A stretch of DNA of 64,000 nucleotides from Lucinisca nassula (Eukaryota > Mollusca > Bivalvia > Lucinida > Lucinidae): the NCBI GenBank assembly GCA_963580285.1, contig OY757014.1, forward strand, positions 103,108,072 through 103,172,071, written 5' to 3'. Both the position numbers and the translations under genes were made by a program. Positions 20,400 to 60,193 of this stretch are shown piece after piece. Each line of letters starts with the position of its first letter. The first letter of the stretch is position 1. The notes beneath the pieces are model-generated. The model did not search any database, was not told where the DNA came from, and worked only from the letters and a program-made list of their open reading frames with translations.

Positions 20400-20895
20400 A
20401 CCCCTATACAAATACATTGTAAACTTTACCTCCGAAAAATCGAAATTTTTAGATAGAGGATTGTTATATATTTCTTATTTCTGCTCAAAATATAGATTGT
20501 GGGTACTCGTTGAAACCGCCTCATCGGGCCTGTTCTAACGAATACCAACAATCTATATTGTAGAGCAGAAATAAGAAAAATATGGTTTATCCCTGTAAAC
20601 CAAAGTTTTACGATATAAAAGCTATTATTTGAGTGGGTGCATCGCTTATATTATTTTGCTTTGGATAGCCAATTGGCCATTTTGTGGGAAAGCAACCGTC
20701 CTTTTGGCTTTCCGCTAGTGATGTTTCCATTAGGGTCTAGTTGTTTCATGTTTGTGTTTCTTTTCCTTGGTGTCTCTGATCGGAGCCGTGGGTTAATTGT
20801 ATCGATTCCGGATTATTGCCTTCACTTCTATTTTTCAAAGGGGGGGGGGGGGGGGGGGGCGGGTCAAAATTATATAGGCGTGTTTTCGTGATGTA
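20400..20895. mobile_element. FB-1 copy split by a PLE 3' fragment
   Basis: Left end to centre: 'cttatttctgctcaaaatat', 'actcgttgaaaccgcctcat', 'cgggcctgttctaacg', 'aatctatattgtagagcag'. The outer right end (gggtcaaaattatataggcg, tgttttcgtgatg) is displaced to 20862-20893 by the PLE fragment and a G tract. Confidence 0.8.
20622..20838 (+). mobile_element. PLE, 5'-truncated 3' tail
   Basis: It matches the PLE 3' region from 'tgggtgcatcgcttatatta' through 'ggccattttgtgggaaag' to 'ttgccttcacttctatttt'. It lies inside FB-1, so FB-1 was already in place. Confidence 0.8.
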
Positions 20896-22385: not shown

Positions 22386-22935
22386 TGTTAATTCTAAGCG
22401 CAAATGAGGTTTCTGTCTCTGGTCGGGCCCATCAGAGTCTAACTGTTGGTTTTCTTTTGCTCCAGCATTTCAGTGTTTTCTTGCTGTCGAGTCCTCACCG
22501 TTGTCTCACCTCTCTGGTTCTTTGATTTTTTTTTGTGTTCACGGAGATGTTGCACTGATGAGTTAGGAGGCCTTCATGCGGACTGAACAAATTATTTGTC
22601 TAAATCGCGACGGAGGTAAGGGCGAGGGTTGTGGCCACGTAAAATCGATTTAAGCCCCCCAGTGGAAATCTTTCCACTGACCGTTCCGAGGCGGTTCTTC
22701 TTTGGCGATTTGTTTATGTTGTTGATTGTTACTAACTGTGTGTAACACTTGTGTCTTTTAATTTTGGATGGCCATATGGCCATTTTGTGGGAAAGTAACT
22801 GTCCTTATGGCCTTCCTTTGTTTAGGTTTCCATTATGGTCTGGTCGCTTGGTGTGTGTATTTCTTTCCCTTTGGTGTCTTTGGTGGGTGGAGTAAGTTAA
22901 TTGTATCGATTCCTGATCTTTGTTTTACTTCAGCT
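22386..22935 (+). mobile_element. PLE 3' region, 5'-truncated
   Basis: It begins at 'aaatgaggtttctgtctctg' and runs through 'gcactgatgagttaggagg', 'ctaaatcgcgacggagg' and 'ggccatatggccattttg' to 'cctgatctttgttttacttc'. It contains no coding sequence. Confidence 0.85.
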
Positions 22936-38096: not shown

Positions 38097-38785
38097 TTTT
38101 TCTTAGGTTTAACGTCCCCGTCAACACTGTAGAGGTCATTTTGGAGACGTTGCTTGAGGTGAAACGACACCACAAAATAGAAGTGGAGGCAATGATCAGG
38201 AATCGATATAATCAACCCACAGCTCCCATCAGAGACACCAAAGGGAAAGAAACACAAATGTGAAACAACAGACCTAATGGAAACATCAAAAGCGGAAAGC
38301 AAAAAGGACAGTTACTTTCCCATGAAACGGCCAATAGGCTATCGAAAATAAAATAATATAAGCGACACAAACACCCAAAGACAAACCCTAACAAAAATAA
38401 ACTGCGACAGAAGGACATACTTGGACAGATCAGTGGAAACGAATTCCACTGGGGGGGGGAGTTGGGGGGTTAAATCCTCGCCCTTACGTCCGTCGCGATT
38501 TAGACAAATAATTTGTTCAGTCCGTATGAGGCCTCCTAACTTATCAGTGCAACATCTCCATGAACACAAATAATCAAACAACCACAGAGATGACAAGCCA
38601 TGTCGCCCAATGAAACCAATAGGGTTTATAAGCATGGACGGTCCGACTCGCACCGCTTTGCCAGGGCAGGCTCAGATCCTCTAAGCCGTTTACCAGTATT
38701 CGTGTGCGATTGGTTTCAGCTCTGCGTGGAGGCATCATGCGGCCCATCTATTTCTTCAAGCCCTGATTGGGCACAACAAACATGT
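38097..38785 (-). mobile_element. SINE-alpha split by an inverted PLE 3' fragment
   Basis: SINE pieces 38097-38162 (aggtttaacgtccccgtcaa) and 38586-38775 (ccaatagggtttataagcat to cttcaagccctgattggg) flank 38165-38585, which is minus-strand PLE from agaagtggaggcaatgatca to the 'gttgcactgataagttagg' region. Confidence 0.8.
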
Positions 38786-39011: not shown

Positions 39012-39709
39012 GGCAGGCCTAAGATTCTATGACGGTTCCAGCGTAAAGGCTTACTGACAATTAGAAAGAATTTAATTTTATGTAATGTTGGTTGGTGCCC
39101 GATGCTCTGTCTCTGGTCGGGTCCATCGGAGTCTACCTGTTGGTTTTCTTTTGCTCCAGCATTTCAGTGATTTCTTGCTGTCCAGTCCTCACCGTTGTTT
39201 CATCTCTGTGGTTGTCGGCTTTTTGTGTTCTTGGAGATTCTGCACTGATGAGTTAGGAGGCTTTCGTGCGATGCGGAGGGAACAAGTTATTTGTCTAAAT
39301 CGCGACGGAAGTAAGGGCGAGGATTGCAGCTGCATAAAATCGATTTAACCCCCCGCCAGTTGAATTCGTTCCACTGACCATTCCAAGGCCGTTCTTCTGT
39401 TTTTCATTTGTCTTTGAGTGTGTGTATTGCTTATATTATTTTGTTTTGGATAGCCAATTGGCCATTTTGTGGGAAAGTAACTGTTCTTTTGGCTTTCCGC
39501 TATTGATGTTTCAATTCGGGTCTAGTTATTTCATTTTTGTGTTTCTTTCCCTTTGGTGCAATTGATGGGAGTTGTGGATTAATTGTACCGGTTCCTGATC
39601 ATTGCATTCAATTCTATTCTATAAGAGAAGTGTATAACTGTCTAACAGCCATCTTTGATACCAACTTAAGGAATTCAAATCTGTCTTTGACAATCAAATA
39701 CACGTAACA

Positions 39710-41369: not shown

Positions 41370-42890
41370 CCCAGCTGCCGAAGCAGAATGCTTTTTTCAC
41401 TTCTGAAGAGCATAAAAATTATATTTTATGGTCATGTCAGAAAGTGTGTGAAGCTGTCACCTTTCCACTGTATTTGACAAACTTTACATAACATTTGGTA
41501 CTAAGTTATTTAGACAAATTGTGGGTATTCCGATGGGTAGAAATTCTGAATGCTTTGTGGCTGATCTATTCTTGTTTTCTAAAGAAAGAGACTTCATAAT
41601 GTCCCTTTCCGTTGAGAACCAATCTGGAATCATTGAAGCTTTCAGCGTGACTTCCAGATATTTGGATGATTTACAACACTTAGTCGAAGGTTTGATAAGT
41701 CAAATTTACAACCCCCCCCCCCCCCCCACACACACACACACACACACACAAACTTCAGTTAAATAAAGCAAATTCTTCTGATACCGAGGCCCCGTTTTGA
41801 AATCTAGATCTATCTATTGTAGATGGGTTTGTTTCCTGCAAATTTTATGTTAAACGCAATGATTTTGGTTTGAGATTGTACACTTTCCTTTCTTGTATGG
41901 TGATGTTCCTCGTGCGGCATCATATGGCGTTTATATTTCGCAATTTATTCGATTTACCAGAGTGTCTAGTCATGTGACTGACTTCAACACTCGTAATAAA
42001 ATGTTAACTGCTAAACTTCTTAATCAGGGTTATCGGTATCATAATATACGCATAGCCTTTTCAAACAAAAAATTATAGACGTCATTCCGATTTAATTTCA
42101 AAACACATTGTTGGACTTAATTCTCTTCTACAACGAGCTTTCGGAACGATTTAGTATATAAATTAAGAGAAATATATACATAAATTTTATACCATAAACT
42201 ACATGCATGGTAGTTAACCCTATCACGGTTGACAACTTTGCTTCCCTCTTTAATTGCACGCCGGTGGGTCAGTCCTCAGATTCTATGACGGTTCCAGCGT
42301 AAAGGCTTACTGAGAATTAGAATTTAATTTTATGTAATGTTGGTTGGTGCCTGATGATCTGTCTCTGGTCGGACCCATTGGAGTCTAACTGTTGGTTTTC
42401 TCTTGCTCCAGCATTTCAATGGCTTCTTGCTGTCGAGTCCTCATCGTTGTTTCATCTCTGGGGTTATGTGGTTGTTTGATTTTTGTGTTTTCGGAGATGT
42501 TGCACTAATGAGTTAGGAAACCTTCATGCGAAGTGAACAAATTATTTGTCTAAATCACTACGGAAGTAAGGGCGAGGATTGCGGCCTCGTAAAATCGATT
42601 TAAGCCCCTAGTGGAATTTGTTTCATTGTCCATTCCAAGGCGGTTCTTCCGTCGTGGTTTATTTTTGTTATGGTTTGTCTTTCAATGTGTGCATCGCTTA
42701 TATTTTGTTTTGTTTTGGAGAGCCAACTGGCCATTTTGTCGGGAAGTAACTGTTTTTTAGACTTTCGCTATTGATGTTTTCATTAGGATCTTGTTATTTC
42801 ACGTTTGTGTTTCTTTCCCTTAAATGTCTCTGACGGTAGATGTTATTTGTATCTATTCCTGATCATTGCCTTCACTTCTGTTATACATTC
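41370..42890 (+). pseudogene. PLE copy, degenerate
   Basis: The region encodes the PLE reverse transcriptase from the 'FFTSEEHKNYILWSCQKVC' equivalent. The frame 41521-41766 carries GIPMGRNSECFVADLFLF (where better copies have GTNCAPLVADLFLY) and the catalytic SRYLDDL box. It then runs into a C tract and (CA)n at about 41710-41750 that breaks the frame. Later pieces include 'RAASYGVYISQFIRF' and 'HVTDFNTRNKML' (41893-42078). The 3' region (42190-42890) ends 'cctgatcattgccttcactt'. It is clearly older than the copies at 44 and 57 kb. Confidence 0.85.
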
Positions 42891-44096: not shown

Positions 44097-46412
44097 GGTG
44101 TAAGCGAGATTATGTTGAGCATAAAGCCCTTAAGGACTGGAAACTAAGCATTTTAAAACTTGTGAATAAACGCATTTCTGTCTATTCTCAAAATACTAAC
44201 TTATTACCCCCTAAGCCTAAGACGTCTTTACGTCATCTAAAACTAGGTATTCAAGAATTTTATAAGAAGTTTGTTTTGGCCCCTGCAGACAAGGCCGCTA
44301 ACAACGTCGTCGTTGTGTGACGGCTCCACTATGTTAACACGCTTTAGCAGGAGCTTGGTGGTACTAAGGCCTATGAACTTCAGCCTTTAGCTGAAGAGAG
44401 AGTTATAGTAGATAAACATTTTTGTCATTCAACCACCAAGTTTGCTGTGTGTGTTACCGAAGGCCAAGACAAGCTTCCTACGCTATACTTGTTACCAAAA
44501 CTTCATAAAAGACCTTACAAAGCACGGTTTATTGCAAATTCTAGCTCTTGCACTACCACTGAACTTTCTTAATTATTAACTTCCTGTCTTACTGCTATTA
44601 AAACGCATGTGATTAAATAGTGTGATAAAGTCTTTGAAAGATCAGGAAGAAATCTGTTTTGGTCTATAAAAAATTCGAATGAGGTTTTAAATAAATTGAA
44701 ATCCAGACATTTTCGTGCTTCAAGTCTGTCTACTTACGATTTTTCCACTCTTTACACTACACTTCCTCATAATCTTATAAAAGAAAAACTTAATGATTTA
44801 ATTGAATGGGCTTTTCACAGAGATGATTCTCTCTATCTTGCATGTAATGTCAGAAATGCATTTTTCACTTCTATAGAGCATAAGAATTATACACTTTGGT
44901 CATGTCAGAAAGTGTGTGATGCCCTCACCTTTCTACTTGACAATATTTATATTAGATTCGGTACTAAGTTATTTAGACAAATTGTGGGCATTCCGATGGG
45001 TACGAATTGCGCACCTCTTGTGGCTGATCTATTCTTGTATTGTTATGAAAGAGACTTCATGTTGTCGCTTTCCATTGATAACCAATCTGATATATTTGAA
45101 GCTTTTAGCTCCACTTCTAGATATTTAGATGATTTATTAAATATTGATAATACCTATTTCGATGGTTTGATCAGTCAGATTTACCCCCCAGAACTTTAGT
45201 TAGATAAAGCAAATTCTTCTGATACCGAGGCCCCGTTTTTGGATTTACATCTATCTATTGTAGATGGGTTTGTTTCATGCAAAATTTATGATAAACGCGA
45301 TGACTTTGATTTTGAGATTGCAAATTTTCCTTTTTTGGATAGTGATGTTCCTCGTGCACCATCCTATGGCGTTTATATTTCGCAATTAATTCGATTTGCT
45401 AGAGTGTGTAGCCATGTAACTGACTTCAACACTCGTAATAAATTATTAACGGCTAAACTTCTTAATCAGGGTTATCGGTACCATAAACTACGCAAAGCCT
45501 TTTCAAAATTTTATAGACGCCATTCTGATTTAATTTCAAAATTCAATATCGGACTTGAATCTCTTCTGCAACAAGGTCTATCGGAACCCGAATTTTATGG
45601 TGACTTAGTATATAAATTCAGAACAATATATAACCGCAATGACTTTAGCACCCAATTTCGTAAAATCATTCTTCGATATAAAAAGATTGGGTACAACATT
45701 GATATTATACGACAGACTGCATGCATGGTAGTTAACCCAATCACGGTTGGCAACTGTGCTTCCTTCTTTAATTGCACGCCGGTGGGTCAGGCCTCAGATT
45801 CTATGACGGTACCAACGTAAAGGCTTATTGAGAATTAGAGAGATCTAATTCAAGGTAATGTTGGTTGGTGCCTGATGGTCTGTCTCTGGTTGGGCCCATC
45901 GGAGTCTAACTGTTGGTTTTCTTTTGCTCTAGCATTTCAGTGGTTTCTTGCTGTCGAGTCTTCACCGTTGTCTCACCTCTGTGGTTCTTTGATTATTTGT
46001 GTTCACGGAGATGTTGCACTGATGAGTTAGGAGGCCTTCATGCGGACTGAACAAATTATTTGTCTAAATCGCGGCGGAAGTAAGGGCGAGGATTGTGGCC
46101 ACGTAAAATCGATTTAAGCCCCCCCCCCCCCCCCCCCCCCAGTGGAAATCTTTCCACTGACCGTTCCAATGCGGTTCTTCTGTGACGATTTATTTGTTAT
46201 TGTTTGTTACTTACTGTGTGTATCACTTGTGTCTTTTAATTTTGGATGGCCATATGGCCATTTTGTGGGAAAGTAACTGTCCTTATGGCCTTCCTTTGTT
46301 TAAGTTTCCATTATGGTCTGGTCGCTTAATGTTTGTATTTCTTTCCCTTTGGTGTCTTTGATGGGTGGAGTAAGTTAATTGTATCGATTCCTGATCTTTG
46401 TTTTACTTCTAC
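44097..46412 (+). mobile_element. PLE copy with 6 bp target duplication
   Basis: A 5'-truncated copy, from ggtgtaagcgagattatg to the terminus gttttacttcta + c. It is flanked by gtcgat at 44091-44096 and 46413-46418. The interrupted sequence is the hairpin element otherwise seen intact at 25117-25190. The 3' non-coding region spans about 45821-46412 and contains a C tract at 46118-46140. Confidence 0.92.
44110..45820 (+). pseudogene. PLE reverse transcriptase (copy at 44 kb)
   Basis: The reverse transcriptase of a Penelope-like element, the enzyme that copies element RNA. It reads 'ALKDWKLSILKLVNKRI' then FVLAPADKAANNVVVV, a TGA (44318-44320), 'LPTLYLLPKLHKRPYKARFI', motif A 'YDFSTLYTTLPHNLI' (44726-44770), 'GIPMGTNCAPLVADLF', the catalytic YLDD box (45122-45133), 'PFLDLHLSIVDGFVSCKIYD' and a C-terminal part to 45820. 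Besides the TGA there are at least four in-frame stops, including one at 45197-45199 after YPPEL. The longest open pieces are 44696-45199 and 45239-45820. No GIY-YIG nuclease is present. The copy is about 97% identical to that at 57-60 kb. Confidence 0.88.
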
Positions 46413-47016: not shown

Positions 47017-47687
47017 ACGGAACCCAGGAAGGGACATGAATTTTTTTATATAAGTTGTGCGCACAAGATAATATCTTGTGCGGACAACTTCCCAAGATCT
47101 ATGTTGTGCAAACAAGATATTATGTTGTGCGATAAGGTATTATCTTGTGCGTACAAGATAATATCTTGAGCGCACAAGAAATTATATCTTGTTCGCACAG
47201 CATATTATCATGTGCGCACAAGATATTTAGCTGTGCAAACAAGATATTATCTTGTCTGCACAAGATAACACCCTGTCCGAACAACATAGATCTTATGCGA
47301 GCAAGATACTATCTTGTGCGCAACAGATAATATCTTGTGCGGACAACATAAAATCTTGTTCGCACAAGATAATGTATTGTTCGCACAACTTCCCAAGATT
47401 TATGTTGTGTAAACAAGATAGTATGTTGTGCGAACAAGATAATATATTGTGTGCACAAGATACTAAGTTGCGCAAACAAGATATTATCTTATGCGCACAA
47501 GATAATATGTTGTCCACACAAGATAAATTATGTTGTCTGCACAAGATAAAATCTTGTGCGCACAACATATTTTGCAGACAACATAATTTATCCTGTGCGG
47601 ACAACATATTATCTTGTACGCACAAGATAATATCTTGTTGCACAACATATTGAAAATAAAATTGAATGTCCCTTCCCTGGTTCCGAC
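47017..47687. mobile_element. TIR element filled with palindromic 21-mers
   Basis: Inverted ends (47019-47050: ggaacccaggaagggacatg...; 47654-47686, complement ggaaccagggaagggacatt...) enclose 47055-47650. The interior is a tandem array of about 28 units. The unit is the 17 bp palindrome acaagataatatcttgt joined by the palindromic spacer gcgc. Variants change the palindrome centre or swap acaag for acaac. A longer variant with 'cttcccaagat' recurs at about 47088 and 47388. Because the unit is self-complementary, both strands stay open (133 and 180 codons). These Ser-Cys-Ala-rich frames are not credible proteins. Confidence 0.88.
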
Positions 47688-49687: not shown

Positions 49688-50063
49688 GGAAACTCTTTCT
49701 GATACCAAATTATCTGAGACTGATTCAGTTATAGAGATTTATGAACCATTCTTATCAGACGGTTTTGTGTCACTAAATGGTGACAGTTATGCCCATTCTA
49801 CCCCTATTAAAATCTTACGACGAGATACTGGAGCTTCTCAATCTCTTATTCTAGTAGATACTCTGCCTTTTTCTATGGGTAAAAGTGTCCTTATTCAGTG
49901 TGTGGAATGTGGATTGGTTGATGTTCCGCTTCATTACGTTTATTTGTCAACAGACTTGGCATCCGGTTCAGTGACTGTTGGTATTAGACTTCCTTTACCT
50001 TTTAAAGGTGTTCAATTATTGCTAGGCAATGACTTAGCTGGAGATAAGGTTGTGGTAAAATAG
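49688..50063 (+). pseudogene. Gmr1-like aspartic protease
   Basis: A retropepsin-type protease that would cut the element polyprotein. It carries the active-site triplet in RRDTGASQSLIL (about 49821-49856) and the C-terminal 'LLLGNDLAGDKVVV' (about 50020-50057) typical of this family. It is open without a stop from about 49688 to the PLE junction at 50061. The frame is shifted relative to the Gag end. Confidence 0.85.
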
Positions 50064-50640
50064 AACCGGAGGCAATGATCAGGAATCGATACAATTAACC
50101 CACAACTCCCATCAGAGACACCAAAGGGAAAGAAACACAAACATGAAACAACAGACCCCATTGGAAACACCAATAGCGGAAAGCCAAAAGGACAGTTACT
50201 TTCCTACAAAATGGCCAATAGGCTATCCAAATAAAATAAATATAAGCGACACAAACACCCAAAGACGAACCATAGCAAAAATAAACCGCGACAGAAGAAC
50301 CGCCTTAGAACGGTCAGCGAAAAGGAATTCCACTGGGGGGTGGGGTGGTCGGGGGGCTTTAATCGATTTTACGTGGCCACAATCCTCGCCCTTTCTTCCG
50401 TCGCGATTTAGACAAATAATTTGTTCAGTCTGCATGAAGGCCTCCTAACTCGTCAGTGTAACATCTCCGTGAACGCAAATAAACAACCACAGAGATGAAA
50501 CAACGGTGAGGACTCGACAGCAAGAAACCACTGAAATGCTGGAGCAGCAGAAAACCAACAATTAGTCTATGATGGTCGGCCAGACCAAGATAGACTCATC
50601 AGGAACCAACCAACATTACCTTGAATAAGAGCTCTCTAAT
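50062..50640 (-). mobile_element. PLE 3' fragment A inside the Gmr1-like element
   Basis: Minus strand: it starts near 50640 (ttattgagaattagagagc) and ends at 50062 (attgcctccggttcta). This is the 5'-truncated non-coding tail, with a G-rich tract at 50334-50356 (C-rich in the sense strand). It is normal in base composition compared with fragment B. Confidence 0.88.
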
Positions 50641-51412
50641 TCTCAATAAAATAGAAGTGGGGGCGACGACCAGAAACTGACACAACCAACCCACATCCCC
50701 ACCAGAGACACCAAAGGGAAAGAAACACAAACAAGAAACAACAGACCCCAACGGAAACACCAACAGCGGAAAGCCAAAAGGACAGCCACCCTCCCACAAA
50801 ACGGCCAACAGGCCATCCAAAACAAAACTACACAAGCGACACAAACATCCAAAGACAAACCACAACAAAAATAAACCGCGACAGAAGTACCCCCCACCCC
50901 CCGGAACGGCCAACGGAAACGAACCCCACCAGGGGGCCCAAATCGATCCCACGCGACCAAAACCCTCGCCCCACCTCCGTCGCGACCCAGATAAACAACC
51001 CGTTCAGTCCGCATGAAGGCCTCCTAACTCATCAGTGCAACATCTCCGTGAACACAAATAACCAAACAACCACATGGACGATACAATGGCGAGGACTCGA
51101 CAGCAAGGAACCACTGAAATGTTGGGAGCAAAAGAAAACTAACAAGCAGACCACGACGGGCCCGACCAGAGACAGAGCACCAGGCACCAACCAACATTAA
51201 ATTGAATTAGATCTCTCTAATTCTCAATAAGCCTTTACGCTGGAACCGTCATAGAATCTGAGGCCTGACGCACCGGAGTGCAATTAAAGAGGGAAGTAAA
51301 GTTGTCAACCGTGATTGGGTTAACTACCATGCATGCAGCCGGTCGTATAACATTTATGTTGTAACCAATCTTTTTATATCGAAGAATGATTTTACGGAAT
51401 TGGGTGCTGAAA
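50641..51412 (-). mobile_element. PLE 3' fragment B, hypermutated
   Basis: Minus strand: it starts near 51412 (ttcagcacccaatttcg) with the last ~55 codons of the PLE protein (VVNPITVDNFTSLFNCTP), then the 3' tail to 50641. B and A are head to tail. From about 50650 to 51000 the sense strand is saturated with A-to-G changes relative to all other copies; outside that window the density drops sharply. Confidence 0.9.
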
Positions 51413-53109: not shown

Positions 53110-53985
53110 CTGAAACAGCTGATTTTTTAATATGAACACTTATTTCCTGACATTTTAACACGGACAGACAAAAATTCACAAAATATTTCACGATGTGGAC
53201 AAATGGTTCAAAACCTGTTAAGCAACATCCATACAGAATGAATCCTATGAAACAAAATATCTTTAAGAAGTTCAATTAGACAATAACTTTATTGAACCAA
53301 GCCAAAGTGAATGGAGTTCTCCTTGTATTCTTGTACCAAAACCTGATGGGACATATCGTATGTGTACAGATTTTAGGAAAGTTAATTCCTTAAGTAAAAC
53401 AGATAGCTGTCCAGTTCCAAGAATGGAAGGCTGCATTGATAACATCGGGAATGCCAAATACATAACGAAATTCGACCTTCTGAAAGGATTTTTGCAAATT
53501 CCACTCACAGATAGAGCAAAGGAGGTGTCGGCATTTACTTCATCAGATGGATTATTTAACTATAAAGTCATGCCATTTGGAATGAAAAACCGGCATTGTA
53601 GGGCTGGAAGGCTTCATTGCTTATATTGATGACGCTATCTTATACAATGACCAGCAGAATCAACATCTTGGGACTATTCAAGCATTCTTTGATAGAATGA
53701 TTAATGCTAAATTAACAATAAATCTTGCTAAAACTGAATTTTGCCATGCAAGTTTGACATTTCTAGGTCATGTTGTAGGTCAAGGTCATGTGACACCCAT
53801 TGATGCTAAAATTGAGGCTATCGCAAATGTTCCCGTACCTACGTGCAAAAGACAACTGATGCGATTTCTTGGTATGGCTGGTTATTACAGAAAGTTCTGT
53901 AATAATTTTTGTGTCATTGCTGAGCCTTTGACAAATTTGCTCAGCAAAAGAACACAATTTCATTGGAATGAAATATGCCAAAATG
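53110..53985 (+). pseudogene. Gmr1-like reverse transcriptase
   Basis: The polymerase domain. Early motifs are in broken frame; then 'WSSPCILVPKPDGTYRMCTD' (about 53311-53370), 'FDLLKGFLQIPLTDRAKE' (motif A, catalytic Asp in FDL, about 53470) and YKVMPFGMKN. About 40 bases that would encode the APATFQ-type segment are missing at about 53591. After the resulting shift comes the catalytic YIDD box (53622-53633), intact, then 'KLTINLAKTEFCHASLTFLG' and 'MRFLGMAGYYRKF'. The long open piece 53697-54170 covers thumb, connection and the start of RNase H. Confidence 0.88.
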
Positions 53986-54424
53986 CTTTCGATAAGCTTA
54001 AAGCCATACTAAAGAGTGAGCCATTTATCTTAGCACCAAACTTTGAAAAGGAGTGTAAGCTAGCTGTAGATGCTAATGACGTAGGTGCAGGTAGTGTTCT
54101 TTTGCAGGAAGATGATAATGGTGTGGATCATCCACTTTGCTTCTTTTCCAAAAAGTTTAATAAGCATTAGAGAAATTACTCTACCATAGAGAAAGGGTCT
54201 TGTCTCTGATTCTTGCTCTGCAACATTTCGAAGTTTATCTTACTTCTACTGCTGCACCGATTGTCGTTTTCAGTGATCACTTTCCACTGACTCTCATACA
54301 TAAAATGAAAAACAAAAATCAGCGGTTGCTCAGGTTGAATTTTATGCTACAAGAGTATAATTTAGACATAAGATATGTCAGAGGGAGAGATAACTTTATC
54401 CCTGATGCCCTTTCAAGAGCTTGA
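53986..54424 (+). pseudogene. Gmr1-like RNase H
   Basis: It would degrade the RNA of the RNA-DNA hybrid. It carries LAVDANDVGAGSVLLQ (first catalytic Asp), 'CFFSKKFNKH' followed by tag at 54168-54170 (a Gln in relatives), 'YSTIEKG', then after a shift 'LILALQHFEVYLTS' and VVFSDHFPLTLI (a further Asp). The end is 'YVRGRDNFIPDALSRA', the usual C-terminus of Ty3/Gypsy Pol, with a TGA at 54422-54424. Confidence 0.88.
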
Positions 54425-57325: not shown

Positions 57326-58763
57326 ATGCTTTCATTTTTAAGTTCATTACCCGTTTCTGTTTTACGTCTTCTGGACACCGAGGCGAATAAATTCTACGAT
57401 AGTTCTAATCAGTTATATGATGCGGCTCTCTTAACTAGAGGCTATACTCAGCATACTCTCCGTCCTTACATTGATTCTGAAATTAATCATAAACGCCATT
57501 TCTTCAAAATATCCTTCATTAATAAGGGTATGGATTTTATAGATTTGCCCAGTATCTTCCGTGAGATATCGGTGCTTTCTTCCATTCCTGCTTATTTTCA
57601 AAATACTGACACGCCTATAATTTGCTATAAATATAACAAACCTGTTAGATCTATCATTTTTAATTTCAATAAACTTGTTTCAGATCTTGATATTGATACT
57701 AATACTCCTGATTCATGTGATTGTAAAAACTCAGTGTATTGCTGGTCATGTAATTACTGGCAATTTGAAAATTTTTCCTGATTCTAGGATAAGGAATATA
57801 ATTTCTAAAGGACCGAAATATCGGTTTCCTTCTAAAATTGATTTCAGTAAATGTAGAGATGAAATCGCTGCTTCCTTGAATGAATTCGGTAATCGATGGT
57901 GTAAGTATGTTGAGCATAAAGCCCTTAAGGACTGGAAACTTATCATTTTAAAACTAGTGAATAAACGCATTTCTTTCTATTCTCAAAATACTAACTTATT
58001 ACCTCCTAAGCCCAAGACGTCTTTACGTCATCTTAAACTAGGTATTCAAGAATTCCATAAGAAGTTTGTTTTTACCCCTGCAGACAAGGCCGCTAACAAC
58101 GTCGTCGTTGTGTGACGGCTCCACTATGTAATCACGCTTAAGCAGGAGCTTGGTGGTTCTAAGCCCTATGAACTTCAGCCTTTAGCTGAAGAGAGAGCTA
58201 TAGTAGATAAACATGTTTGTCATTCAGCCACCAAGTTTGCTGTGTGTGTTACCGAAAGCCAAGACAAGCTTCCTACGCTATACTGGTTACCAAAACTTCA
58301 TAAAAGACCTTACAAAGCACGGTTTATTGCAAATTCTAGCTCTTGCACTACCACTGAACTTTCTAAATTATTAACTTCCTGTCTTACTGCTATTAAAACG
58401 CATTTGATTAAATATTGTGATAAAGTCTTTGAAAGATCAGGAAGAAATCTGTTTTGGTCTATAAAAAATTCGAATCAGGTTTTAAATAAATTGAAATCCA
58501 GACATTTTCGTGCTTCAAGTCTGTCTACTTACGATTTTTCCACTCTTTACACTACACTTCCTCATAATCTTATAAAAGAAAAGCTTAATGATTTAATTGA
58601 ATGGGCTTTTCACAGAGAAGATTCTCTCTATCTTGCATGTAATGTCAGAAATGCATTTTTCACTTCTAAAGAGCATAAGAATTATACACTTTGGTCATGT
58701 CAGAAAGTGTGTGATGCCCTCACCTTTCTACTTGACAATATTTATATTAGATTCGGTACTTAG
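57326..58763 (+). pseudogene. PLE RT-upstream domain and reverse transcriptase, N-terminal part
   Basis: 57326-57781 encodes 'MLSFLSSLPVSVLRLLD', 'LRPYIDSEINHKRHFFKISF' and the Cys cluster in SCDCKNSVYCWSCN. A frameshift near 57750 leads to HVITGNLKIFPDSRIRNI, 'FVFTPADKAANNVVVV' and TGA (58113-58115). The same frame continues through 'LPTLYWLPKLHKRPYKARFI' and motif A 'YDFSTLYTTLPHNLI' to a tag at 58761-58763 (RFGT). The TGA occupies the place where relatives have Cys and is shared with the 44 kb copy. Confidence 0.85.
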
Positions 58764-59475
58764 TTATTTAGAAAATTGTGGGTATTCCGATGGGTACGAA
58801 TTGCGCACCTCTTGTGGCTGATCTGTTCTTGTATTGTTATGAAAGAGACTTCATGTTGTCGCTTTCCATTGATAACCAGTCTGAAATTATTGAAGCTTTT
58901 AGCGCCACTTCTAGATATTTAGATGATTTATTAAATATTGATAATACCTATTTCGATGGTTTGATCAGTCAGATTTACCCTCCAGAACTTCAGTTAAATA
59001 AAGCAAATTCTTCTGATACCCAGGCCCCGTTTTTGGATTTACATCTATCTATTGTAGATGGGTTTGTTTCGTGCAAAATTTATGATAAACGCGATGACTT
59101 TGATTTTGAGATTGTAAATTTTCCTTTTTTGGATGGTGATATTCCTCGTGCGCCATCCTATGGCGTTTATATTTCGCAATTAGTTCGATTTGCTAGAGTG
59201 TGTAGTCATGTAACTGACTTCAACACTCGTAATAAATTATTAACGGCTAAACTCCTTAATCAGGGTTATCGGTACCATAAACTACGCAAAGCCTTTTCAA
59301 AATTTTATAGACGCCATTCTGATTTAATTTCAAGATTCAATATTGGTCTTAAATCTCTTCTGCAACAAGGTCTATCGGAACCCGAATTTTATGGTGACTT
59401 AGTATATAAATTCAGAAAAATATATAACCGCAATGACTTCAGCACCCAATTTCGTAAAATCATTCTTCGATAAAA
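58764..59475 (+). pseudogene. PLE reverse transcriptase, C-terminal part
   Basis: After a one-base loss, the frame 58778-59473 starts at 'GIPMGTNCAPLVADLFLYCY' and includes the catalytic SRYLDDLL box, 'PFLDLHLSIVDGFVSCKIYD', 'APSYGVYISQLVRFARVC' and the SEPEFYGDLVYKF block. It ends early at ILR where 'cgataaaaaaaaag' has replaced cgatataaaaag. The 44 kb copy continues another ~50 residues. Confidence 0.88.
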
Positions 59476-59479
59476 AAAA

Positions 59480-60193
59480 AGATTGGGTACAACATAGATG
59501 TTATACGACAGACTGCATGCATGGTAGTTAACCCAATCACGGTTGGCAACTTTGCTTCCCTCTTTAATTGCACGCCGGTGGGTCAAGCCTCAGATTCTAT
59601 GACGGCTCCAACGTAAAGGTTTATTGAGAATTAGAGAGATCTAATTCTTGGTAATGTTGGTTGGTGCCTGATGCTCTGTCTCGGGTCGGGCCCATCGGAG
59701 TCTAACTGTTGGTTTTCTTTTGCTCCAGCATTTCAGTGGTTTCTTGCTGTCGAGTCCTCACCGTTGTCTCACCTCTGCGGTTCTTTGATTTTTTGTGTTC
59801 ACGGAGATGTTGCACTGATGAGTTAGGAGGCCTTCATGCGGACTGAACAAATTATTTGTCTAAATCGCGACGGAAGTAAGGGCGAGGATTGTGGCCACGT
59901 AAAATCGATTTAAGCCCCCCAGTGGAAATCTTTCCACTGACCGTTCCAATGCGGTTCTTCTGTGGCGGTTTATTTATGTTGTTGTTTGTTACTTACTGTG
60001 TGTATCACTTGTGTCTTTTTATTTTGGATGGCCATATGACCATTTTGTGGGAAAGTAACTGTCCTTATGGCCTTCCTTTGTTTAGGTTTCCATTATGGTC
60101 TAGTCGCTTAATATTTGTGTTTCTTTCCCTTTGGTGTCTTTGATGGGTGGAGTAAGTTAATTGCATCGATTCCTGATCTTTGTTTTACTTCTA
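59480..60193 (+). repeat. PLE 3' region (reference copy)
   Basis: Conserved in at least nine places in the window. Landmarks: gacagactgcatgcatgg, 'gttggttggtgcctgatg', 'gcactgatgagttaggagg', 'ctaaatcgcgacggaag', 'ggccattttgtgggaaag', 'tttctttccctttggtgtc', terminus gttttacttcta. All insertions keep this end, which fits reverse transcription starting at the 3' end. Confidence 0.88.
59809..59871 (+). ncRNA. Hammerhead-like fold in the PLE 3' region (weak)
   Basis: gttgc (59809-59813) can pair with gcgac (59867-59871) as stem I. CTGATGA matches the 5' core strand, gtt/gac closes stem II, and acaaa-tta-tttgt is a short stem III followed by C, giving a GTC cleavage triplet. The 3' core strand is 'tgaa' where an active hammerhead needs 'gaaa', so this copy would be inactive or the match is chance. 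Confidence 0.35.

Follow-up and report, generated by a model that had tools for sequence, protein, structure and literature searches.

Recurrent, strand-specific, ADAR-like A-to-G hypermutation in copies of a putative Penelope-like retroelement in the genome of Lucinisca nassula

Among the retroelement fragments on contig OY757014.1 of Lucinisca nassula is one, here called fragment B, in whose core most adenines of the element's sense strand read as guanine. This raises the question of what process could have written a single class of change so densely into one piece of chromosomal DNA, and whether it did so only once. The first-pass annotation of the 64,000-nucleotide stretch analysed here (the window) had compared the window's copies by eye and proposed that double-stranded RNA of the element was edited by ADAR before reverse transcription. 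We find that the tract is real, and that the phenomenon is larger than that annotation described: recurrent, strand-specific, ADAR-like A>G hypermutation is present in the genome.

Fragment B is a copy of the 3' unit of an element whose ORF ends just before that unit, and the element's sense strand is fixed by the orientation of the 59621-60182 copy behind its ORF. The element is abundant: searched with fragment A, the neighbour of B, the genome gave 11138 first-look candidate places. Relatives of the ORF likewise run to thousands (7999/7999 scored candidates matched), and the second open frame of the coding stretch preceding the 59.6 kb copy has close protein relatives with E-values down to 1e-157. 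We recognised motifs in the ORF that we take to be Penelope-like. Partial copies also stand head to tail, as B and A do in the window and as others do at L060 and L053, and such an arrangement is a trait of Penelope-like elements. From these motifs and head-to-tail copies, the Penelope-like label given by the first-pass annotation appears plausible. Domain searches on 15 relatives gave weak Pfam matches to RVT_1 in three (best E 0.014) and matches to DUF4250 in four (best 3.6e-5). The model of the predicted reverse transcriptase had a pLDDT of 40.9, too poor for structure search, and no significant solved-structure relative of the reverse-transcriptase-like protein was found. Many Penelope-like elements have a hammerhead ribozyme, and some branches are without the GIY-YIG endonuclease. 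Here, no Rfam match to the hammerhead was seen up to E=1 in window 38000-60500, and no GIY-YIG endonuclease in the three coding pieces scanned.

We scored fragment B against a majority-rule consensus of 27 other copies, namely fragment A, six other window copies (the 20.6 kb piece was omitted) and 20 genome copies, the last being 20 of the best 40 genome matches to fragment A and leaning unedited because they were chosen as best matches to an unedited fragment. Across 575 scored sites B carries 78 substitutions, of which 51 are A>G; the others are 7 G>A, 5 C>T, 4 T>C, 4 G>T, 3 T>A and 4 of further kinds. Expressed as rates, A>G affects 51/94 A sites, while T>C (4/231), G>A (7/146) and C>T (5/104) stand at background level. 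The 27 comparison copies have 0-10 A>G apiece, and at their pooled rate of 0.0328 the chance of 51/94 is about 10^-49. For all classes except A>G, B is an ordinary copy, with a divergence of 4.7% against a mean of 4.8% for the others. At 26 of the 51 changed sites G is absent from all 27 copies, and it reaches 37% at one site; the diverged copies at 39 and 42 kb keep A at most of the 51 (see table). The by-eye count in the 75 bases after 'gcggactgaac', originally 16 of 19, becomes 17 A>G among 21 scored substitutions.

The first-pass annotation had placed the tract between about 51003 and 50650, in a fragment with normal flanks. The position holds for the core, in which one site beyond the 54 that read A or G is a T. 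The flanks are normal only in part: the island adjoining the core and the stretch 51228-51197 (0/14 A changed) are clean, and between them lies a weaker block that is also A>G-rich. At the island, a similar stem-loop is predicted in four of six copies folded and a different fold in the others. B also belongs to a larger insertion at about 51411-50056, in which an ORF tail with 3 A>G among 53 A relative to the 59 kb copy is followed by B and then by unedited fragment A. The inverted pair at 38.2 and 39.1 kb, which had been proposed as a source of duplex, consists of two unedited copies.

Features of the retroelement in the window (window coordinates; A>G is given in the element's sense strand)
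Feature	Coordinates	Strand	Evidence
Fragment B, 3' unit of the retroelement	50647..51230	-	blastn to fragment A and seven other window copies
Core A>G hypermutated tract of fragment B	50655..51003	-	44/54 A sites are G
Unedited island adjoining the core tract	51004..51061	-	0/12 A changed at 51059-51004
Weaker upstream block	51062..51180	-	7/12 A sites A>G at 51180-51062, other substitutions mixed in
ORF tail of B's insertion, unedited	51231..51411	-	92% identical to copies at 45644 and 59438
Fragment A, head-to-tail neighbour of B, unedited	50056..50649	-	3 A>G/94 A sites
Unedited 3' piece	20628..20834	+	1 A>G/27
Diverged copy, not hypermutated	22412..22922	+	10 A>G/78 A sites
Unedited copy, inverted relative to 39051-39621	38174..38593	-	blastn
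Unedited diverged copy	39051..39621	+	blastn; A at 44/51 sites changed in B
Unedited diverged copy	42307..42885	+	blastn; A at 45/51 sites changed in B
Unedited copy after ORF	45825..46400	+	blastn
Reverse-transcriptase-like coding stretch of the 59.6 kb copy, two separate open frames	58116..59473	+	
Unedited copy after ORF	59621..60182	+	blastn

Fragment B is one of many such copies. A genome search with its 354-base tract gave 6241 first-look candidates, and from the best 40 places we fetched 30 loci, one of which is B. Counting a copy as edited when it has at least 12 A>G and more than 14% of its A sites changed, we found an A>G-rich copy at 28 of the 29 other loci, the exception being L056 (8/62). 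Including B, and with two segments at L044, this makes 30 edited segments. Two pairs of loci, L039/L054 and L049/L057, are chromosomal DNA duplications with flanking DNA common to each pair, which leaves 28 non-redundant edited copies. In these, A>G affects 749/2147 A sites (0.349), compared with 84/5551 for T>C (0.015), 114/3495 for G>A (0.033) and 88/2620 for C>T (0.034). Equal rates among the transition classes, named by the first-pass annotation as the pattern that would speak against editing, are thus not what the copies have. The other changes at A are 65 A>T and 10 A>C among the same 2147 sites. Position, length and density of the tracts vary from copy to copy.

The same asymmetry appears when the search sequence is not B. 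We prepared matched baits by script-converting 42 random bases of one unedited genomic copy, either from A to G or from T to C, and for each looked at the next 20 places in rank below the base copy (20/40 others for A>G and 20/39 for T>C). The A>G bait drew out copies with A>G at 269/1043 sites and T>C at 23/2821; 15/20 have at least seven A>G, and the remaining 5/20 have 2 to 4. In the 20/39 matches examined for the T>C bait we saw ordinary copies only, with T>C at 36/2854 sites, at most 6/143, and A>G at 18/1114. Four of the 20 A>G-bait matches had previously been found (the loci of L040, L037, L049 and L031). Six of the newly examined copies reach 12 A>G (L102, L103, L105, L107, L109 and L110), a count in which duplicates are not sorted out. 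The place of L109 was already among the matches of the B-tract search.

Two broader scans covered 195 kb from 50 loci. Among 125 aligned segments, 35 are hypermutated at p<1e-5, all of them A>G and none in the other eleven classes, although 35/125 is not a frequency, since L030-L063 were chosen with B, coding and 3' segments were counted apart, and both members of each duplicate pair were counted. An all-against-all scan of the same sequence gave 268 of 7492 HSPs with a strong single-class bias, and these resolve into 19 intervals, every one of which lies in this element and is A>G in its sense strand. Thirty copies were not search seeds, one of them being the reference copy. Among the other 29, hypermutation is seen in a single copy, which stands in tandem next to a seed, and edited copies are therefore a small minority.

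Some tracts are much longer than that of B. At the L051/L059 locus, 142 of 366 A sites are A>G over 1249 reference ORF bases (T>C 20/433), and the L059 tract continues from the ORF into the 3' unit for about 1.6 kb in total; against L019, 81 of 98 mismatches are A>G in a 444-column alignment. Several loci are mosaics. L060 consists of two head-to-tail copies that are both edited, L036 has a lightly changed copy (8/81) followed by a heavily edited one (50/81) within one array, and L061 has an edited block within an otherwise clean ORF piece. In both L061 and L062, short plus- and minus-strand pieces of the element are nested in one array, with edited and unedited pieces mixed. Inverted copies lie near edited ones at several loci, L036 and L061 among them. 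The inverted neighbour at L036, about 70 bases from the edited copy, has no T>C excess (10 T>C against 9 C>T over 560 sites), and on this ground we reject a hairpin formed in place at that locus. Adenine makes up 0.28 of the first 50 bases beyond 27 edited copies and 0.11 inside them, which supports an editing stop at the insertion boundary only weakly, because the unedited element itself has only 0.16 A (94/575) and most tracts end before the 3' end. Editing is sparse at about positions 505-594 of the 3' unit in most edited copies, B being an exception; perhaps these last ~90 bases were unpaired or protected at the RNA 3' end.

The bases preceding the changed adenines bear on the agent. In the core of B, a 5' G stands before 9/44 changed and 6/10 unchanged A (Fisher p=0.02; within 51003-50740, p=0.0014), these and the following p-values being guides only because sites are not independent. 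In ORF stretches covered by no query (nine segments from six loci, polarised on one reference copy), the A>G rate is 0.225 after G, 0.346 after C, 0.361 after A and 0.426 after T (p=0.00019), which places the 5' neighbours in the order T > A > C > G. Of the copies found with B, 27/28 show less change after G (Wilcoxon p=3.7e-8), a figure that is inflated and to be discounted because B, the search sequence, itself has a pattern that disfavours a 5' G. Among the 20 copies brought out by the randomly converted A>G bait, 12 have a lower rate after G, 7 have a higher one and 1 is tied (pooled 48/204 vs 181/563, p=0.025). Six copies have tracts in the upstream 3' unit, and at its positions 35-226 they show no such effect (34/60 vs 46/75, p=0.60). 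The neighbour preference that the first-pass annotation had put forward as a check on ADAR is thus present in B and in the ORF stretches and missing from the upstream 3' unit, and the test would appear mostly, but not wholly, to favour ADAR.

Candidate enzymes are present in the same genome. We found 20 matches to exons of the adenosine-deaminase domain (A_deamin), on contigs C12 (two places), C15, C9 and C16/C130. The two C12 exons retain FHAE, PCGD and SCSDK, which we read as ADAR-type deaminase motifs, and by this prediction the genome encodes ADAR-type deaminases. Two of the genes are very similar and lie in opposite orientation about 300 kb apart, at C12:39384709-39387478 (-) and C12:39691323-39702336 (+).

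Very probably, RNA of the element was edited by ADAR in double-stranded form and then reverse transcribed and inserted, and this happened many times. We infer ADAR as the agent, double-stranded RNA as the substrate and editing before reverse transcription, as the first-pass annotation had proposed; the class of change, its polarity and the observations set against the competing readings below all support this sequence of events, and the 5'-G depletion does so in part. Under this model, transcripts of this abundant retroelement would pair with an antisense transcript or an inverted copy into long double-stranded RNA, and ADAR would deaminate many sense-strand adenosines to inosine. The element's reverse transcriptase would then copy the edited RNA, reading inosine as guanosine, and insertion of the cDNA would leave a strand-specific A>G tract in the chromosome. 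The process would have been repeated many times on different copies, and the mosaics could have come from partial duplexes or template switching. It is the polarity that places the deamination on sense RNA: A>G in the sense strand points to deaminated sense RNA, and an enzyme that edited first-strand cDNA or an R-loop's template strand would leave T>C instead.

A sister subfamily that inherited its G positions by descent would also give copies with A>G sites in common, and this was the other pattern that the first-pass annotation named as contrary to its reading. Common sites exist. L039/L054 and L049/L057 have the same A>G patterns within each pair, and L043 and L033, which may be related, have 9/22 other derived changes in common. 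The two pairs, however, share flanking DNA as well and are DNA duplications. Over all pairs of edited copies, the fraction of other derived changes held in common has a median of 0.056. Between fragment B and any one of the other edited copies, 11-34 A>G sites coincide but only 0-2 of 12-27 other derived changes, which is the pattern that independent hits on the same adenines would leave and descent would not. This near-absence of shared changes leads us to reject a sister subfamily for B, and inheritance as the general account has almost no chance of being right. Equally little credence is due to a sequencing or assembly artefact. We saw no support for one in these data, and it is opposed by the restriction to a single class, by a polarity fixed to the element on both genome strands and on many contigs, and by the two DNA duplications, whose members carry the same tracts.

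The remaining alternatives retain a real mutational event and change its chemistry. In diversity-generating retroelements, mutagenesis turns a template A into any base; we reject such a mechanism here, given 749 A>G, 65 A>T and 10 A>C among 2147 sites. APOBEC-type editing, which would appear as G>A in the sense strand, is rejected as well (114/3495 in the edited copies and 0/125 segments). Misreading of template A as G by the element's own reverse transcriptase, without any deaminase, would likewise yield sense-strand A>G tracts before insertion. We consider it quite unlikely, since A>T and A>C stay low, 28/29 non-seed copies of the same element are not hypermutated, edited and unedited blocks meet sharply within one array, and the 5' neighbour bias in the ORF is of the ADAR kind. 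A further reading has adenine deaminated in DNA, for instance where ADAR meets an RNA:DNA hybrid in the course of reverse transcription or in an R-loop, and draws on the finding, given in passages of PMC12925331, that ADARs deaminate deoxyadenosine in such hybrids in vitro. A hit on the cDNA or template strand would, however, leave T>C in the sense strand, and no such copy was among the 20/39 T>C-bait matches examined, which makes this route very improbable. ADAR editing of element RNA ahead of reverse transcription therefore remains the reading that we adopt.

Tracts of this type have precedents in retroviruses. Passages of PMC12925331 describe clustered A>G changes ascribed to ADAR in Rous-associated virus and avian leukosis virus, with nearly 50% of A changed, and passages of PMC8025556 report at least seven A>G within a window of ~70 bp of the LTR in three integrated proviruses of bovine leukaemia virus. 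Our tracts are similar in being clustered, A>G and ascribed to ADAR in a reverse-transcribing element. Unlike those infections, they lie in a chromosomal retroelement of high copy number, in which we count 28 edited copies after removal of duplicates and tracts of up to ~1.6 kb, where the bovine leukaemia virus case comprises three proviruses and a short window. Inserted retroelements can also carry strand-specific, clustered deamination scars of APOBEC DNA editing, as passages of PMC2873906 describe; those scars are G>A, and ours are A>G. The same passages report that, among traces of high quality, those of RNA have an A-to-G/T-to-C excess and those of DNA have none, and attribute to ADAR hyper-editing of repeat RNA clustered A>G sites that are seldom preceded by G (PMC2873906). 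We see such clusters, and in B and the ORF stretches the 5'-G depletion too, there in RNA and here in the genome. In the open-licence literature, subscription journals being mostly outside its scope, we came across no description of fossil A>G tracts of the ADAR type in a transposable element of the chromosomes. The event that we describe is known in kind and new in its setting, the precedent that we noticed being retroviral.

ADAR editing is usually viewed as a transient mark on RNA. Given dozens of copies with similar tracts, it seems that chromosomes have repeatedly received DNA copied from edited RNA, so that in this element ADAR editing was apparently made heritable many times. It is an evenly balanced question whether RNA editing acts as a recurrent germline mutator, in which ADAR, on meeting double-stranded RNA of the element, would write A>G into new insertions and inactivate them. 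Such a process would be akin to RIP or APOBEC but would act one step earlier, on RNA. The genome would then preserve the traces of former editing, in which one could recognise earlier ADAR preferences and the transcripts that formed dsRNA, and the tracts would be a fossil record of germline double-stranded RNA. On a practical level, copies rich in A>G can be mistaken for subfamilies in repeat libraries.

Other repeats share the window with the element. At 47112-47631, an inverted-repeat array gives below-cut-off matches to several unrelated microRNA models on both strands and has the look of a repeat that forms hairpins. Reverse transcriptase and RNase H domains (PF17919, PF00078 and PF17917), which we take to belong to a Ty3/gypsy-like element, lie at 53586-54170 (+), some 2 kb from the B-A insertion. 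Self-comparison of the window also brings out a repeat of ~300 bases, at 1007-1312 and elsewhere up to 60612, with about 14 copies among the matches listed, in both orientations and roughly 70-97% identical.
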